Below, in pieces: positions 5,921-12,299 of a DNA stretch of 64,000 nucleotides (positions are counted from its first letter, which is position 1; each line of letters begins with the position of its first letter). The notes under the pieces are model-generated. The model worked only from the letters and a program-made list of their open reading frames with translations, was not told the origin of the DNA and did no database searches. This DNA is from Halostella limicola. GTDB taxonomy: Archaea > Halobacteriota > Halobacteria > Halobacteriales > Natronoarchaeaceae. The stretch spans positions 124,001 through 188,000 of the forward strand of contig NZ_RCDI01000004.1 of NCBI RefSeq assembly GCF_003675875.1, in the 5' to 3' direction. The translations under genes and the position numbers were made by a program.

Positions 5921-6658
5921 ATGGAAAGCGAGAGCAATATTACACGGCGCCGGATCCTCGCTGCCGGCGGCGCATCCGTCGCTTTCGGCGGCGGGATCGC
6001 GTACTTCGCATCCCGCGACGGTTCGTCCGACCGGGAGTACGTCCCGGATACCTTCCACCGGAGTGACGAGACGACAGGGTTCGGCGTCGAACTCGCCGGA
6101 CGACCGATCGCGGGGGAGCGGGACGCTCCCATGGACATCTACTACTGGACGGACTACCTCTGTCCGTTCTGCAAGCAGTTCGAGACGGAGACGCTCCCCG
6201 ACGTCGGGACCGACTACGTCGATACCGGAGAGGCAAGACTGATCGTCCTCTCGTATCCCAACATCGGGGAGTACTCCACCCCTGCGGCGGTCTGGGGCCG
6301 CTGCGTCTGGGAACAGGTCGCCGAGGATGTCCCGGCGGCGTTCTGGCGCTGGCACGGGGCCGCGTTTGACGAGCAATCCGAGTCGGGTCACGACTGGGCG
6401 GACGATGAAACGTTCGCGGCCGTCACGGAAGAGACCGAACATGTCGCCGTTTCCGAGGTCAACGACTGCCGACAGACACGTGGCGACGCGGTCCGCGAGT
6501 CGATCGGGACCGACGTCGACGCTGCACGATCGGCGGAGATACGGGGGACGCCCGGCTTCGTTCTCTACAACCGCGAGGCCGATGCAGCGGGTAAGCTGGT
6601 CGGTGCGCATCCCTACGAGAACTTCTCGGACGCACTGGATCAGGTGCTAGAAGCGTGA
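5921..6658 (+). CDS. Tat-exported DsbA-like thiol oxidoreductase
   Basis: 245 residues from ATG 5921. The N-terminus carries a twin-arginine signal (TRRRILAAGG, residues 8-17) followed by a hydrophobic core, so the protein should act outside the membrane. A thioredoxin-fold DsbA/DSBA-like domain follows with the active site CPFC at residues 81-84 after YYWTDYL, and a cis-proline loop RGTPGFVLYN near 208. A second pair of cysteines (RCVWEQ, NDCRQT) is present in the helical insertion. CPFC resembles BdbD and archaeal DsbA relatives. Its stop overlaps the GTG start of the next gene, so it forms an operon with two membrane proteins having CxxC motifs, which could be its redox partners. Confidence 0.88.
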   Translation: MESESNITRRRILAAGGASVAFGGGIAYFASRDGSSDREYVPDTFHRSDETTGFGVELAGRPIAGERDAPMDIYYWTDYLCPFCKQFETETLPDVGTDYVDTGEARLIVLSYPNIGEYSTPAAVWGRCVWEQVAEDVPAAFWRWHGAAFDEQSESGHDWADDETFAAVTEETEHVAVSEVNDCRQTRGDAVRESIGTDVDAARSAEIRGTPGFVLYNREADAAGKLVGAHPYENFSDALDQVLEA

Positions 6659-7200
6659 CGCCGAGTGTCGGGGACTCGGGGTGGGTCCGGACGCTCCCCG
6701 ACGCGCTCGCGTATCCGCTGACGTCGAACAGGCGACTCCTGACCGCCGGGGTCGTTACCGTGCTGACCTACGTCGGGCTGGTGCTGAACACGTTCCCGCA
6801 GTTCACCGTCCAGCTCCTCGCGCGGGACCCGACTGACCTGTTCTACGCGGTCACGGTGCTCACCAGGGAAACGTATCTTAGCGTCGGCTGGCTCGGGCTC
6901 GTCCTGGTCGCGACTTACGCACTGCTCACCGGGGTCGCCGTAACGGCCGCGGTGACGCTGTTCAGCCGGGCACGGCGGCGGAGCGCGTCGACGGTGTTCG
7001 GGGTCCTTCCGGGCCTGCTCGCCGCCAGCTGTGCGAGCTGTGGGGCCGGAGTCCTCGGAGCACTGGGGTTCGTCGGCGCGATGGCGGCGCTCCCGTTCCA
7101 GGGAAACCTCCTTCGGGTCGGCGGGATCCTGTTGCTCGTGTTCTTCCTCGGGCGGACTGGCGACCCACGAACGTGTACGATCAACCTTTCAGACACATGA
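6655..7200 (+). CDS. Polytopic membrane protein with CxxC (CASC) near a membrane segment
   Basis: 181 residues starting at GTG 6655, overlapping the DsbA-like stop by four bases. Four hydrophobic segments can be drawn: LLTAGVVTVLTYVGLVLN (27-44), LGLVLVATYALLTGVAVTAAV (81-100), the VLPGLLAASCASCGAGVLGALGFVGAMAAL region (115-145, with CASC at ~124-127), and VGGILLLVFFLG. The CxxC sits at or inside the membrane, as in disulfide-relay proteins, but no CcdA, DsbB or VKOR signature is visible. The next gene has a similar layout, with CPIC in the same relative place, so the two look like paralogs. Function as electron donor or acceptor of the DsbA-like protein is inference. The family was not recognised. 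Confidence 0.75.
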   Translation: MTPSVGDSGWVRTLPDALAYPLTSNRRLLTAGVVTVLTYVGLVLNTFPQFTVQLLARDPTDLFYAVTVLTRETYLSVGWLGLVLVATYALLTGVAVTAAVTLFSRARRRSASTVFGVLPGLLAASCASCGAGVLGALGFVGAMAALPFQGNLLRVGGILLLVFFLGRTGDPRTCTINLSDT

Positions 7201-7285
7201 ATCAGGATCGGATACTCCACAGCGACGGGGGGTCTCGTCACGGAAACGAGAGGCGTACTGAGCGTCGGGAAGGTGTTCGCAACGG

Positions 7286-7699
7286 ATGACGTCGCTTTCG
7301 CACCCGCGCTTCTTCAAGAGTGCCGGCATCGGCGTCGGGGTTTTCCTCCTGTTCGGGACGGTGACCGGACTGATCCCGAACCCGGTCTACGTCAGGATGG
7401 TGGACCGGACGCCGGCCGATTACCTGTTCCTCGTCGCGACGTCCGCGTTCGCCGCGGCGTTCGTCTACCAGCGCTCGTTGGCCGCCGAACCGATCGGGGA
7501 CCGTTCCGCGGTCGGCGGCATCGTCGGAGGGTTCCTCGCGTTCGGCTGTCCCATCTGCAACGCGGTCCTCCTGGCGCTTTTCGGTTCCTCGGCGCTGATG
7601 ACGTATCTCGACCCGTTACGCCCGGTACTGGGGGCAGTGTCGGTCCTCTTTTTCGCTGGGCTCCTCTACTACCAGCGACGGCGGTGTGAGGTCTGCTGA
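7286..7699 (+). CDS. Small membrane protein with CPIC motif and CEVC tail
   Basis: 137 residues from ATG 7286, preceded by GGGAAGGTG. Hydrophobic segments: IGVGVFLLFGTVTGLI (14-29), DYLFLVATSAFAAAFVY (46-62), VGGIVGGFLAFGCPICNAVLLALFG (77-101) and VLGAVSVLFFAGLLYY (115-130). CPIC lies inside the third segment; the extreme C-terminus is RRCEVC. It resembles the preceding protein in the CxxC segment (G-L/F-L-A-x-x-C-x-x-C followed by a Gly/Ala-rich helix). Together with the DsbA-like gene it makes a three-gene set with five CxxC-type sites. No established family was recognised; a disulfide or metal shuttle in the membrane is the most natural guess. Confidence 0.75.
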   Translation: MTSLSHPRFFKSAGIGVGVFLLFGTVTGLIPNPVYVRMVDRTPADYLFLVATSAFAAAFVYQRSLAAEPIGDRSAVGGIVGGFLAFGCPICNAVLLALFGSSALMTYLDPLRPVLGAVSVLFFAGLLYYQRRRCEVC

Positions 7700-7868: not shown

Positions 7869-8447
7869 TCAGACGAGGAGCTGGATGTCGGCGTCGGCCA
7901 TGTCCTGCAGAGCGGTTGCGGCGCCGACGCCGGTGGTGACGCCGTCGTAGAAGTCGTCCTCGTCGTAGTCCATCAGGTCGATGGTCATCTGGCAGGCCTG
8001 GAACTCGACGCCCATCTCGAGGCTGGTTTCGACGAGTTCCTCGATCGTCGCCGTGTCGTTGTCTTCGATTTTCTTCTCCATCATCTTCGTCGTCACGCGG
8101 TCCATTCCGGGGAGCGCGCCGACGACGTTGGGAACCGGCATGTTCGGATTGCCGACCGAACTGAGCTTCAGGTCCTTCGAGCGCTCCTCGTGGAGGATCT
8201 CCAGCCCCCAGAACGTGTGGAACACGGTCACGTCGTAGCCGAAGGCGGCCGCCGTGCTCGCGAGGATCAGCGGCGGGTACGCCATGTCGAGCGTGCCCTT
8301 GGTGGCGATGATGCTCATCTTCCTGCTATCGTCCTCGCTGTCCGCCGTGGCCTCAGCGAGCGCGTTCTCGAGGTCGTCGACGCGCGCGGCGAGTTCCGCA
8401 CGCGAGGGTGCGTCGTCGGCCGGCACGTCGGATGTCTCCGTGCTCAT
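7869..8447 (-). CDS. DsrE/DsrF-like sulfur-relay protein
   Basis: 192 residues from ATG 8447; a GTG at 8453 that overlaps the tusA stop is the alternative start. An N-terminal acidic coiled stretch (residues ~12-40, RAELAARVDDLENALAEA) precedes the DsrE domain, which begins KMSIIATKGTLDMAYPPLILASTAAAFG. A cysteine in EFQACQMTIDLM near residue 150 matches the position of the active cysteine in DsrE/peroxiredoxin-like DrsE family proteins. DsrE-like proteins take sulfane sulfur from TusA. The gene follows tusA directly in the same operon, which matches the known tusA-dsrE partnership. A decayed copy lies at 925-1140. Confidence 0.9.
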   Translation of the reverse strand: MSTETSDVPADDAPSRAELAARVDDLENALAEATADSEDDSRKMSIIATKGTLDMAYPPLILASTAAAFGYDVTVFHTFWGLEILHEERSKDLKLSSVGNPNMPVPNVVGALPGMDRVTTKMMEKKIEDNDTATIEELVETSLEMGVEFQACQMTIDLMDYDEDDFYDGVTTGVGAATALQDMADADIQLLV

Positions 8448-8449
8448 CG

Positions 8450-8695
8450 TCACTCGGTCTTGCGCACGTAGTGTTTGTACACGTCGTCGCCCTCCTCTTG
8501 GTCGACGAGTTCGACGCCGGCGGTGCCGGACGCCCAGCCGTCGATGTCGCTCATACTCCCCGGGTCGGTCGCCAGCACTTCCAGTACCTCACCCTCCGCC
8601 AGGTCGTCGATGGCGGATTTGGTCTTCACGACCGGCATGGGACACGATGCGCCTTTCACGTCGAGCGTCTCCGCGATGTCGAATTCCGTACTCAT
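8450..8695 (-). CDS. tusA: TusA-family sulfurtransferase
   Basis: 81 residues from ATG 8695. The TusA signature is complete: LDVKGASCPMPVVKTK with the active cysteine at residue 18 in C-P-x-P, and the typical two-layer alpha/beta fold spacing with EGEVLEVLATDPGSM. TusA carries sulfur as a cysteine persulfide and hands it on to DsrE or other acceptors. Its stop overlaps the alternative GTG start of the dsrE-like gene. It is divergent from the rhodanese/MBL gene, sharing a 250-base control region that contains matching CCTATATTGTG elements. Its own TATA box is TTTTAAC on the minus strand at about 8751-8757. Confidence 0.92.
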   Translation of the reverse strand: MSTEFDIAETLDVKGASCPMPVVKTKSAIDDLAEGEVLEVLATDPGSMSDIDGWASGTAGVELVDQEEGDDVYKHYVRKTE

Positions 8696-8732
8696 TGGTT
8701 GTCCGCTCCGTTGGTCTGTATTGGAGCTATCG

Positions 8733-8743
8733 CACAATATAGG
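8733..8743 (-). promoter_or_regulatory. CCTATATTGTG element, tusA side
   Basis: On the minus strand this reads CCTATATTGTG and stands about eight bases downstream of the TTTTAAC box of the tusA promoter. An identical 11-mer on the plus strand lies at 8871-8881 before the rhodanese/MBL gene, so the pair is inverted across the divergent control region. Its placement next to the transcription start suggests an operator. Confidence 0.5.
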
Positions 8744-8870
8744 GCCCATGGTTAAAAGAATGTTGGTTCTTGTGGTGAATCTGAACAACCATGCTCTATC
8801 CCTGTCGGCTTATATGGGTCAGTACCTCCGATTCGAGTGTCTTGGAGAGTGTGGAATTTGATATCGGGGT

Positions 8871-8881
8871 CCTATATTGTG
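8871..8881 (+). promoter_or_regulatory. CCTATATTGTG element, rhodanese/MBL side
   Basis: Plus-strand copy of the 11-mer found inverted at 8733-8743. It lies 20 bases upstream of the presumed BRE/TATA of the rhodanese/MBL promoter. The TATTGT core also starts the TATTGTACA elements at 1337 and 12564. Confidence 0.5.
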
Positions 8882-8900
8882 TGGTTAGTGGATTACTATG

Positions 8901-8916
8901 CAAACCCTTTTGTACA
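8901..8916 (+). promoter_or_regulatory. Core promoter with TTTGTACA, rhodanese/MBL gene
   Basis: CAAACCCTTTTGTACA resembles the core promoters at 1352-1364 (CCAAAACCCTTAA) and 12579-12591 (CCAAAACCGTTTT). It sits about 13-28 bases before ATG 8929, a usual distance for leaderless haloarchaeal transcripts. The TGTACA core overlaps its right end. Confidence 0.5.
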
Positions 8917-8928
8917 TCCGTCCGGTAG

Positions 8929-10137
8929 ATGGGGGTACACGATATGAACGCCGAAGACTTCCCGACTCCCGACGTCGAAGTCGAAACGATCGCACCGGAG
9001 ACGCTGAAGAGCCGCATCGACGCGGGCGAGGAGCTCACGCTTCTCGACGCGCGGATGAACTCCGACTACGATGAGTGGCGCATCGACGGCGAGAACGTCA
9101 CCTCCATCAACGTCCCGTACTTCGAGTTCCTCGAAGACGACATCGACGAGGACGTTCTCGAACGGATCCCCGCCGACCGCGAGGTGACCGTCCTCTGTGC
9201 GAAAGGCGGCGCCAGCGAGTTCGTCGCGGGAACGCTCGCCGAGCGCGGCTACGACGTTAACCACCTCGAAGACGGCATGAACGGCTGGGCGCGCATCTAC
9301 GAGGCCGTCGAGGTCGCAGACTACGACGGCGCCGGCACGCTACTGCAGTACCAGCGCCCGTCCTCGGGCTGTCTGGGCTACCTGCTGTACGACGACGGCG
9401 AGGCCGCGATTATCGACCCGCTGCGCGCGTTCACCGACCGCTACCTCGCGGACGCTGATGACCTCGGCGTCGAGCTCGAGTACGCGCTCGACACGCACGT
9501 CCACGCCGACCACATCTCGGGCGTGCGCGACCTCGACGACGACGGCGTCGAGGGCGTCATCCCCGATGCCGCCGTCGACCGCGGCGTCACCTACGCCGAC
9601 GAACTCACTCGGGCCGAGGACGGCGATACTTTCGAAGTCGGTGACGCCACCATCGAGACCGTCTACACGCCCGGCCACACGACCGGGATGATGTCGTACC
9701 TCGTCGACGACAGCCTGCTCGCGACCGGCGACGGGCTGTTCATCGAGAGCGTCGCGCGCCCCGACCTCGAGGAGGGTGACGACGGCGCACCCGACGCCGC
9801 GCGCATGCTCTACGAGTCGCTCCAGGAGCGGGTGCTGACCCTCGACGACGACACGCTGGTCGGGGGCGCGCACTTCAGCGACGCGGCCGAGCCCGCCGAT
9901 GACGGCACCTACACCGCGCCGATCGGCCAGCTCGTCGAGGAGATGGACGCGCTCACGATGGACGAAGAGGCGTTCGTCGAGCTGATCCTCTCGGACATGC
10001 CGCCGCGGCCGGCCAACTACGAGGACATCATCGCGACGAACCTCGGTCAGAACGAGGTCGACGACGAGGAGGCGTTCACCCTCGAACTGGGTCCGAACAA
10101 CTGCGCGGCGAGCCAGGACTCGCTCGCGGGTGACTGA
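8929..10137 (+). CDS. Rhodanese-metallo-beta-lactamase fusion, persulfide dioxygenase-like
   Basis: 402 residues; ATG 8929 or ATG 8944 (five codons later) may be the start. A rhodanese domain comes first (residues ~15-125, ending GMNGW) with the active-site loop CAKGGAS at 90-96. The metallo-beta-lactamase domain follows: SSGCLGYLL at ~145-153, the metal ligands TH-VHADH (H190, H192, D194, H195), the TPGHTTG histidine near 245, and a TGDGLFIESVARPD loop. This matches ETHE1/PDO-like persulfide dioxygenases, which oxidise glutathione- or other low-molecular persulfides to sulfite. The end of the MBL part (NYEDIIATNLGQNE, LGPNNCAA) is the usual PDO-like tail. Rhodanese N-terminal is the reverse of the better-known PDO-rhodanese order. 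It leads an operon with two YeeE-type genes. Confidence 0.9.
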   Translation: MGVHDMNAEDFPTPDVEVETIAPETLKSRIDAGEELTLLDARMNSDYDEWRIDGENVTSINVPYFEFLEDDIDEDVLERIPADREVTVLCAKGGASEFVAGTLAERGYDVNHLEDGMNGWARIYEAVEVADYDGAGTLLQYQRPSSGCLGYLLYDDGEAAIIDPLRAFTDRYLADADDLGVELEYALDTHVHADHISGVRDLDDDGVEGVIPDAAVDRGVTYADELTRAEDGDTFEVGDATIETVYTPGHTTGMMSYLVDDSLLATGDGLFIESVARPDLEEGDDGAPDAARMLYESLQERVLTLDDDTLVGGAHFSDAAEPADDGTYTAPIGQLVEEMDALTMDEEAFVELILSDMPPRPANYEDIIATNLGQNEVDDEEAFTLELGPNNCAASQDSLAGD

Positions 10138-10145
10138 AACCGCCG

Positions 10146-10637
10146 ATGGTGACTGACCCGCTCCCGCTGCAGGTGGCCGCCGAACTGTTCCCCAACGGGA
10201 TCAGTCGCTACGCCGTCGGCGGGCTGCTCGTCGGGCTCGGCGTGACCGTCATCTACCTCGGCACCGGCATCAGCGCTGGCGCGAGCACGTTCCTCGAGTC
10301 CACGCTGTCGTACGTGTCCGACCGGTCCCGGTTCCAGCAGTACGTCAGCTCTCGTGATTGGCGGCTGGTGTTCACGGTCGGGATCGTTCTGGGTGCGGCC
10401 GTGTACGCGGTCGTGTATCAGGGCGGGGCGTGGACGACGGACGTCCAGCCGTGGCGACTGCTCGTCGGCGGTATCTTCGTCGGCGTGGGAACGCGCGTCG
10501 GCAAGGGCTGTACCTCCGGCCACGGCGTCTGCGGTGTCGGTTCGGCGTCGAAGACGTCGATCGTCGGCGTCGTCACGTTCCTGCTCGTCGCCATCGCGAC
10601 CGCGCAACTCGTCGCGGCACTGGGGGTGAGCCCGTAA
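10146..10637 (+). CDS. YeeE/YedE family sulfur transporter, first half
   Basis: 163 residues, starting eight bases after the MBL gene. Four membrane segments: YAVGGLLVGLGVTVIYLGTG (21-40), LVFTVGIVLGAAVYAVVY (73-90), LLVGGIFVGVGTRVG and IVGVVTFLLVAIATAQLV. The hallmark GKGCTSGHGVCG is at about 121-132, carrying the conserved cysteines that in bacterial YeeE contact thiosulfate. YeeE-type proteins import thiosulfate or related sulfane species. Here the family is split in two genes: this one and the next, each one half. The two are adjacent (stop then start without spacing), so they should assemble as a heterodimer. Confidence 0.9.
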   Translation: MVTDPLPLQVAAELFPNGISRYAVGGLLVGLGVTVIYLGTGISAGASTFLESTLSYVSDRSRFQQYVSSRDWRLVFTVGIVLGAAVYAVVYQGGAWTTDVQPWRLLVGGIFVGVGTRVGKGCTSGHGVCGVGSASKTSIVGVVTFLLVAIATAQLVAALGVSP

Positions 10638-11096
10638 ATGTCCGACCGACACCCCGCGTTCATGCCGCTGGTGCTCGTCGGCGGCCTGATCTTCGGGTTC
10701 GGGCTGGCGTACAGCCACATGGCCCGCCCGGAGGTGGTGCTGAACTTCCTCCAGTTCGAGGACTTCGGGCTGGTGTTCGTGATGTTCGGCGGGGCCGCGG
10801 TGACCGGGCTGACGTTCTTCGTCGCTCCGCGGCTCGTAGGACGGGCGCCCCTGACCGGCGACAGCTTCGAGCGGCGACTGAAGTCCTTCGACCGGGACGT
10901 GCTCGTCGGAGGAGCGATCTTCGGCGTCGGCTGGGGGCTGTCCGGGATCTGTCCCGGTGCGGCCTACGCTAGCCTCGGGATCGGTAACGTGACGATCCTC
11001 TGGGCGCTCGCCGGGATGTTCCTCGGGGCGTACCTGCAGGGCTACTGGCGGAGCCGCACGACCGAGACCGGTCCCGTGGCATCGGGTGCCGACTAA
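10638..11096 (+). CDS. YeeE/YedE family sulfur transporter, second half (DUF6691-like)
   Basis: 152 residues starting right after the previous stop. Segments: PLVLVGGLIFGFGLAYSHMA (10-29), FGLVFVMFGGAAVTGLTFFVA (45-65), VLVGGAIFGVGWGLSGICPGAAYAS (89-113) and a final ILWALAGMFLGAYLQGY. The hallmark GLSGICPGAA has the conserved cysteine. It is the partner half of the gene before it. The unit order rhodanese/MBL-YeeE-YeeE suggests that imported sulfane sulfur is fed to the dioxygenase. Confidence 0.88.
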   Translation: MSDRHPAFMPLVLVGGLIFGFGLAYSHMARPEVVLNFLQFEDFGLVFVMFGGAAVTGLTFFVAPRLVGRAPLTGDSFERRLKSFDRDVLVGGAIFGVGWGLSGICPGAAYASLGIGNVTILWALAGMFLGAYLQGYWRSRTTETGPVASGAD

Positions 11097-11117: not shown

Positions 11118-12299
11118 ATGGATCCCTCCACAGTCGGACTGTTCCTGACCGCCGGATCGGCGAGTCTGTTCATGGCCTGGGTCATCGGGGCCGGGTCGAG
11201 CGGCGCGACGCCGTTCGCCCCCGCCGTGGGTGCCAACGCCGTTTCGACGATGCGAGCGGCGTTCATCGTCGGTATCTTCGGCTTTGCGGGCGCGGTCGTA
11301 CAGGGGAGCAACGTCTCCGAGGCCGTCGGTCGAGGACTGATCGGCGGCGTGAGTCTCCCGGCGACGGCCGTCATCATCGTGTTGCTGATCGGCGCCGGGC
11401 TCATGGCGATCGGTATCAAGACGGGCTATCCGATCGCGACAGCGTTTACCGTGACCGGGTCGGTCATCGGGGTCGGACTCGCGCTCGGTGGAACGCCCGT
11501 CTGGCCGAAGTACCTCCAGATCGGTGCCGTCTGGGTGCTGACGCCGTTCGTCGGCGGCGGCCTCGCGTACGCCATCGCGAGTGTCCTCCCCCGGTCCGAC
11601 GTGCCGGAGCGATACAGCGTCTCCATTCTGGCCGGTCTGGTCGGTGCGGTCCTCGCGAACGTCGAGTTCGCGTATCTCGGTCCGAACGGCGCGGCCGGCT
11701 CCCTCGTCGGGGTCAGCCAGCGGACTCTCGGGAGCGACGGGATAGCGATCCCTCTCGCAGTTTCGCTGCTCGCCGCAGCTGTCGTCGCCGGGTTCGTCAC
11801 GCGAGACATCCGTCGTGATATGAGCGGGGGACTGCGACGGGTGCTTCTCGCTCTCGGCTCGCTGGTCGCGTTCTCCGCGGGCGGGAGCCAGGTCGGACTC
11901 GCCGTCGGTCCGCTGCTCCCCCTCCTCGACGGCCCGGAGACGGTTCCGGTGATCGCGATCCTGACCGGCGGCGGATTCGGGATCCTCGTCGGATCGTGGA
12001 CCGGCGCGCCCCGGATGATCAAATCGCTGGCGCAGGATTACTCGTCGCTCGGGCCCCGTCGGTCCATCGCCGCGCTCGTGCCGTCGTTCCTGATCGCGCA
12101 ACTCGCCGTCCTGCTCGGGGTCCCCGTCTCGTTCAACGAGATCGTCGTCAGCGCGATCATCGGGAGCGGCGCGGCCGTCGGCGGAAGCGACGCGATCGAT
12201 TCGCGGAAGATACTCGTGACGGTGAGTGCATGGGCCGGATCGCTACTGCTTGCCCTGGCAGTCGGCTATATCGCAGTCGTCCTCCTCCCGGTCGGCTGA
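11118..12299 (+). CDS. PiT-family permease, candidate sulfate/thiosulfate transporter
   Basis: 393 residues with about ten membrane segments and two PiT repeats. The first repeat has AVGANAVSTMRAAFIVGIFGFAG near residues 37-60 (GAN-x-V-S replaces the classic GANDVAN). The second is the C-terminal IGSGAAVGGSDAIDSRKILVT region. PiT proteins carry phosphate, but CysP-type members carry sulfate. Starting 21 bases after the YeeE pair and in the same operon as a persulfide dioxygenase, a sulfur anion is the likelier substrate; no phosphate-related gene is nearby. A hydrophilic loop GVSQRTLGSD lies mid-protein. Substrate assignment is inference. Confidence 0.85.
   Translation: MDPSTVGLFLTAGSASLFMAWVIGAGSSGATPFAPAVGANAVSTMRAAFIVGIFGFAGAVVQGSNVSEAVGRGLIGGVSLPATAVIIVLLIGAGLMAIGIKTGYPIATAFTVTGSVIGVGLALGGTPVWPKYLQIGAVWVLTPFVGGGLAYAIASVLPRSDVPERYSVSILAGLVGAVLANVEFAYLGPNGAAGSLVGVSQRTLGSDGIAIPLAVSLLAAAVVAGFVTRDIRRDMSGGLRRVLLALGSLVAFSAGGSQVGLAVGPLLPLLDGPETVPVIAILTGGGFGILVGSWTGAPRMIKSLAQDYSSLGPRRSIAALVPSFLIAQLAVLLGVPVSFNEIVVSAIIGSGAAVGGSDAIDSRKILVTVSAWAGSLLLALAVGYIAVVLLPVG

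Follow-up and report, generated by a model that had tools for sequence, protein, structure and literature searches.

A candidate thiol relay of an exported DsbA-like protein and two paralogous CxxC membrane proteins in Halostella limicola

The three genes and their surroundings

Three closely spaced genes lie on the forward strand of the window, i.e. the whole 64,000-nucleotide stretch of Halostella limicola DNA analysed here. The first encodes P0001 (5921–6658, 245 aa), an exported DsbA-like oxidoreductase with matches to Pfam Thioredoxin_4 (3e-16) and DSBA (9e-8). Its Thioredoxin_4 score of 60.3 bits, against a Pfam cut-off of 23.2, places it in the DsbA/Thioredoxin_4 family, and it is not the Rcas_1661 (seleno)lipoprotein of NF041057 (72.7 bits against an equivalog cut-off of 190 bits). 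P0001 has a Tat-type N-terminus (TRRRIL), one hydrophobic segment, a CPFC motif at residues 81–84, a cis-Pro loop (GTPG) and a second cysteine pair at 128/183. The CPxC motif and Pro211 are each present in 73/73 relatives, and Cys128 and Cys183 co-vary, being both kept in 70 of these, both lost in 2 and discordant in 1. Its best solved relative is BdbD (1.9e-15), which is an oxidase. The P0001 stop overlaps the GTG start of the next gene by 4 nt. This gene encodes P0002 (6655–7200, forward strand, 181 aa), with a CASC motif at residues 126–129 and, passed over in the first-pass annotation, a further cysteine, Cys174, in its tail; pairs of P0001 and of P0002 sequences gave dN/dS values of 0.2–0.45. 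After a gap of 85 nt follows P0003 (7286–7699, forward strand, 137 aa), with CPIC at residues 88–91 and CEVC at 134–137 in its tail.

Upstream on the same strand lie a gene for a cytosolic thioredoxin (1391–1750; Pfam Thioredoxin, 4e-27), the proposed electron donor, and, directly 3' of it, one for a thioredoxin-reductase-like flavoprotein (1751–2776; Pyr_redox_2, 1e-42). In 4.1 Mb the genome holds only 7 thioredoxin-domain genes, and each of two copies of the three-gene module has one of them nearby. The second copy (G000:C5:202271–203820; L158:6269–7820, minus strand) is degenerating: an in-frame stop interrupts P0001 and P0002 is internally deleted, with P0003 intact, and genes for thioredoxin, DUF302, a methyltransferase and a persulfide dioxygenase (PDO)-like protein lie beside it.

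Downstream, the reverse strand carries a DsrE2-like sulfur carrier (7869–8447; Pfam DrsE_2, 1.6e-52; NCBIfam NF047629, 1.7e-48, under the NF047629 cut-off) and a TusA sulfurtransferase (8450–8695; 2.7e-22). These are followed on the forward strand by a rhodanese and metallo-beta-lactamase protein resembling persulfide dioxygenases (8929–10137; Rhodanese, 2.5e-9; Lactamase_B, 1.8e-11) and two half-size YeeE/YedE sulfur transporters (10146–11096; Sulf_transp, 8e-13 and 1e-9), the first of which weakly matches TsuA. Straight after the YeeE halves comes a PHO4-type permease (11118–12299), found again in locus L159 (genome G059), whose cargo may be a sulfur oxyanion and not phosphate. The first-pass annotation had described a CPFC protein overlapped by a CASC membrane protein and followed by a CPIC/CEVC membrane protein, all within a sulfur gene island; each of these elements is present at the positions given above, the island spanning 7869–11096. 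Its remark that no DsbB, VKOR or CcdA signature is present holds genome-wide, as no match to CcdA PF02683, VKOR PF07884 or DsbB PF02600 was obtained in this genome.

Cysteines, topology and kinship of P0002 and P0003

Hydropathy gives four hydrophobic segments each for P0002 and P0003, with the CxxC of CASC and CPIC in the third. In about 90 P0002 relatives these three cysteines recur with unchanged spacing; the motif reads CASCG, rarely CATCG or CAGCG, and the tail cysteine follows it by exactly 43 residues, the exceptions being mainly truncated or frameshifted copies. CPxCN is kept in about 80 P0003 relatives, archaeal and bacterial. Since these features are conserved across so many relatives of both proteins, chance does not account for them. 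Most haloarchaeal P0003 proteins have the tail CxxC, three (L050, L055 and L056) lack it and have a CxxxxC in the TM2–TM3 loop, actinobacterial members have a single tail cysteine, and alphaproteobacterial members have a loop cysteine, some with a tail cysteine in addition. Two variants were also seen: one P0003 (L062:1489–1938) reads CPIY in place of CPIC with its tail CxxC intact, a natural single-cysteine variant, and in a remnant in Halorussus litoreus (L133:9935–10249) a deletion has fused the P0002 TM3 region to TM4 and the tail of P0003.

Loop charges suggest the orientation of the two proteins. In P0002, the Lys/Arg values are 4.1 for the N-terminus and 2.4 each for the TM2–TM3 loop and the tail, compared with 1.0 and 0.0 for the outside loops; P0003 points the same way less clearly, its two middle loops showing little contrast. 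The N-terminus, TM2–TM3 loop and tail of both proteins are thus predicted to lie inside, an orientation that would place a CxxC midway through the membrane and a thiol on the cytosolic side in each. The loop cysteines of P0003 members lacking the tail CxxC are likewise predicted to be on the cytosolic side.

P0002 and P0003 match nothing above cut-off in Pfam or NCBIfam, and the bacterial P0003 homologues are likewise without a family. With bacterial members included in the P0003 alignment, hhalign against the P0002 family returned a probability of 88% with an E-value of 3.2e-6 (for a single comparison) over 106 columns, pairing TM2 to TM4, CASC with CPxC and tail cysteine with tail cysteine. 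Controls (CcdA, YeeE, TauE, DUF7521, DUF2270, NrfD and MerF-like neighbours) gave 0.1–1.3% and E-values of 0.04 or worse. Against haloarchaeal P0003 alone the signal is weak (16% and 11%), so that the case for paralogy leans on the wider alignment, in which bacterial sequences raised the probability to 88%. The profile comparison nonetheless supports P0002 and P0003 being paralogues, as the first-pass annotation had called them.

The same methods place neither protein in a known transporter or redox family. CcdA/DsbD_TM gave no match to Pfam PF02683 and 0.1–1.2% in hhalign, and the YeeE proteins are unrelated to both by profile comparison. Neither is placed in MerT/MerF by Pfam, and the MerTP score of P0003 is 12.8 bits against a cut-off of 180 (E 0.066). 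The family of MerF-like neighbours described below relates weakly to P0003 (probability 5%, E 0.0075) and has no profile relation to P0002. A sequence-profile search of the PDB returned chance matches alone for P0002; the weak match of P0003 to the complex I subunit NDUFC2 (E 0.008) was dismissed as similarity between transmembrane segments. AlphaFold2 models had mean pLDDT values of 73.6 (P0002) and 66.4 (P0003), with low confidence at the CxxC of both, and Foldseek found no meaningful match to them in the PDB (best E 3.1 and 1.1). Because the alignments behind the models are shallow and of low diversity and confidence is low at the CxxC, this blank does not argue for a new fold. A structure match to CcdA, VKOR or MerT, which the first-pass annotation had named as speaking against its reading, was found for neither protein, though the models are poor.

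Distribution and gene neighbourhoods

P0002 relatives occur in 27/98 related genomes (one further weak match discounted), and all 71 loci found across GTDB, as well as all 24 plasmid occurrences, are haloarchaeal. P0003 is likewise present in 27/98 genomes (one weak match discounted), and it is found on plasmids of Rhodococcus, Streptomyces, Arthrobacter, Mycolicibacterium, Rubrobacter, Alphaproteobacteria and Thermomicrobium, the bacterial members being known through plasmids only. P0003 is thus no haloarchaeal novelty, and PMC6305408 had already noted a bacterial form of the cluster in 2018.

Both membrane proteins are encoded in 22 of the 98 genomes (Fisher p=1e-12, shared ancestry ignored). 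A P0001 homologue lies near P0002 in 69/70 non-remnant loci, and a P0003 homologue lies within 3.5 kb in 45. Co-occurrence, whose lack the first-pass annotation had named as speaking against its reading, is therefore strong. The P0001 and P0002 genes are co-stranded within 60 nt in 33 pairs, 23 of which show the 4-nt overlap. The module is kept through at least four gene orders: all three genes co-directional as P0001-P0002-P0003; P0002-P0003 with P0001 divergent from them; P0001-P0002 with P0003 convergent on them; and P0001-P0002-CcdA. This persistence despite changed gene order is stronger evidence than the Fisher co-occurrence. Gene calls in unannotated loci were made with a simple script.

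CcdA recurs at these loci. It lies directly 3' of P0002 in six haloarchaeal loci, as in Halococcus, Halospeciosus and Halomarina, and many Natrialbaceae have a SCO1-TlpA-CcdA string downstream; P0003-MerF-like-SCO1-TlpA-CcdA is found on a Halomicrobium plasmid that lacks P0002 (L157). Genes for a DsbA/Trx-domain protein, CcdA and P0003 overlap or abut in this order in Arthrobacter D5-1, A. crystallopoietes and Pseudonocardia, and CcdA with a Trx-domain protein is divergent from P0003 in Rhodococcus PR4 pREL1 and Arthrobacter pA40H2. Genome-wide, CcdA is above cut-off in 6/27 genomes with P0002 and 10/71 of the others, i.e. there is no avoidance. A strict replacement of CcdA by P0002 was therefore rejected, as CcdA adjoins P0002 or P0003 in some relatives. 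VKOR is present in 9/27 P0002 genomes.

Thioredoxin and DsbA-like genes recur as well. A thioredoxin gene lies within 10 kb of P0002 in 36/71 loci, and immediately beside P0001, P0002 or P0003 in only 3; in L159, Trx, TrxB and P0003 form a string on one strand adjoining a sulfur island. A DsbA gene and P0003 share a 4-nt overlap within a sulfur island (YeeE/YedE, TauE, metallo-beta-lactamase) of Azospirillum, and the pair recurs in Indioceanicola. P0003 is followed by TlpA in Mycolicibacterium, overlaps a rhodanese gene in Rubrobacter, and lies near a DsbA with an ScsC_N domain in Tabrizicola. No DsbA-like gene was found in the stretch examined around the P0003 genes of Streptomyces, Sinorhizobium and Thermomicrobium.

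Two further small membrane proteins accompany the module. One, without a Pfam family, has an SLCC-type motif, a cysteine-rich tail and a MerF-like layout and occurs in 17 haloarchaeal loci, often adjoining P0003 (e.g. L087:10677–10991, L098:10538–10792 and L157:3648–3908). The most frequent extra neighbours are a DUF7521 small membrane protein (e.g. L093:10952–11215) and an adjacent winged-helix regulator, in 44 and 41 loci; in this window, the clustering put no member of either group close to the module.

Sulfur genes (PDO-like, TusA, DsrE2, YeeE and TauE) lie near 33/71 haloarchaeal P0002 loci, and the Arthrobacter DsbA/P0003 pairing sits in a sulfur island with DsrE, rhodanese and TauE. The other recurring context is copper genes, namely P-type ATPase, CopY, multicopper oxidase, SCO1, DUF305 and DUF411. 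As a general reading, a sulfur-specific function was rejected, since no tallied sulfur gene lies within 10 kb of 38/71 loci; sulfur transfer is thus not an obligatory function of the module.

A proposed reductive relay, its rivals and known systems

We consider it somewhat probable that the three proteins form a reductive relay running from thioredoxin through P0002/P0003 to the exported P0001, in sulfane-sulfur and copper islands. Electrons would pass from NADPH via thioredoxin reductase to thioredoxin, which would reduce the cysteines on the predicted cytosolic side (Cys174 of P0002 and the tail CxxC of P0003), and from there to the TM3 CxxC of P0002 and P0003 and on to the CPFC site of P0001, exported and anchored in the membrane. 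Under sulfane-sulfur or copper-stress conditions, P0001 would reduce thiol targets outside the cell, such as carrier proteins or copper proteins that are persulfidated or mis-oxidised, and it may release sulfane sulfur beside the half-size YeeE proteins. P0002 and P0003 may form a heterodimer doing work comparable to that of CcdA, the protein to which bacteria commonly leave this task. With no match to CcdA, VKOR or DsbB in the genome, P0002 and P0003 stand out as the evident partners, in the membrane, for its main exported DsbA-like protein. The flow is probably reductive, from the cytosol to the outside, as CcdA occupies the same slot, thioredoxin is nearby and cysteines lie on the predicted cytosolic side.

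Several observations count against this relay. BdbD, the nearest solved relative of P0001, would as an oxidase fit the opposite direction; some loci have CcdA next to P0002; a thioredoxin gene is nearby in only half of them all; the L062 P0003 has CPIY; several bacterial P0003 genes have no DsbA-like gene in the examined stretch; the AlphaFold2 models are weak at the CxxC; and the P0003 topology draws on loop charges of little contrast. On balance, the thiol-relay reading of the first-pass annotation gains from the co-occurrence, the retained cysteines, the CcdA slot and the thioredoxin neighbours, while the transfer of sulfur that it also considered is not obligatory.

Among the alternatives, an unlikely one, ranking first, is a conduit in which P0001 takes up or releases sulfane sulfur and the cysteines of P0002/P0003 pass a sulfur atom, not electrons, to cytosolic TusA/DsrE2 and the dioxygenase. 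The sulfur genes in the window and at 33/71 loci and the DsbA/P0003 pairing in the sulfur islands of Azospirillum and Arthrobacter would suit it, as would the release of sulfane sulfur proposed in PMC11582611 for a DsbA-like protein next to a YeeE-type importer. However, the tallied sulfur genes are missing within 10 kb at the other 38 loci, the YeeE proteins, unrelated to P0002/P0003, already supply an importer, and the same slot is filled by CcdA, an electron mover.

Slightly less likely still, P0002/P0003 would re-oxidise P0001 in the manner of DsbB, handing electrons to quinone or another acceptor. That BdbD and DsbA oxidases are the closest solved structures to P0001, that a genome without DsbB and VKOR would need another oxidant for it, and that four-helix membrane bundles recall DsbB and VKOR are all consistent with oxidation; yet the extra cysteines are on the predicted cytosolic side, whereas those of DsbB/VKOR sit in an outer loop, the CcdA and thioredoxin neighbours point to reduction, and VKOR is present in a third of P0002 genomes (9/27). 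Least likely is a MerT/MerF-like conduit exchanging Cu(I) or Hg(II) between the cytosol and a thiol protein on the outside: the membrane and cytosolic cysteine pairs resemble the MerT/MerF layout, copper genes surround many loci and P0003 weakly matches MerTP, but the MerF-like neighbours are unrelated to P0002 and only weakly related to P0003, the partner that recurs throughout is a thioredoxin-fold protein with CPxC and not a metal-binding domain, and CPxC motifs and CcdA partners suit redox.

Returning to the reductive relay, a bolder version is somewhat less likely than not: P0002 and P0003 would constitute a new superfamily of 4-TM CxxC proteins in archaea and bacteria that moves electrons through the membrane, a counterpart of CcdA/DsbD of independent origin, with the haloarchaeal heterodimer doing the whole job. 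To our knowledge, few protein families (DsbD/CcdA/ScsB) move reducing equivalents across membranes. If a second, unrelated family exists, the task of supplying reducing power across the membrane has been solved more than once, haloarchaea without CcdA, VKOR and DsbB gain control of thiols outside the cell, and an unclassified membrane family in the sulfur and copper islands of Actinobacteria and Alphaproteobacteria acquires a function.

The proposed arrangement can be compared with several known systems. The ScsB/ScsC system of copper islands pairs an exported DsbA-like protein with a membrane electron supplier and resembles P0001–P0003 in this respect and setting, although ScsB is of the DsbD/CcdA type and unrelated to P0002/P0003. 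DsbB and VKOR share a 4-TM bundle acting on a DsbA-like partner; unlike them, P0002/P0003 show no sequence match, lack the outer-loop cysteine pair and have their extra cysteines on the predicted cytosolic side. Literature searches by function turned up no work on P0002 or P0003. An Arthrobacter CYT module of a regulator, two CcdA, a DsbA-family protein and DsrE, adjoining a sulfur module, has been described, with no mechanism proposed for it (PMC6305408). A P0003 homologue lies beside this module in pA40H2, and, in contrast to the haloarchaeal set, there is no P0002. Since the pA40H2 record has a single CcdA there together with a P0003 homologue, the latter labelled hypothetical, the second "CcdA" of that description is probably a P0003 homologue.

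The closest likeness is to CcdA-ResA and SoxV-SoxW, in which a small polytopic membrane protein with essential-looking cysteines stands beside an exported thioredoxin-fold protein, often with a cytosolic thioredoxin. CcdA has two single intramembrane cysteines in separate helices, whereas P0002 and P0003 have four TM segments with a CxxC in TM3 and tail cysteines; homology between them is not detectable by profile comparison, and operons common to both occur in relatives. SoxV, a CcdA, reduces SoxW in sulfur oxidation, as cited in PMC10451225, and SoxV-SoxW is the nearest characterised parallel to the proposed P0001–P0003 relay. P0002 and P0003 probably work like CcdA-type relays while standing, on the tests run, outside the CcdA family.
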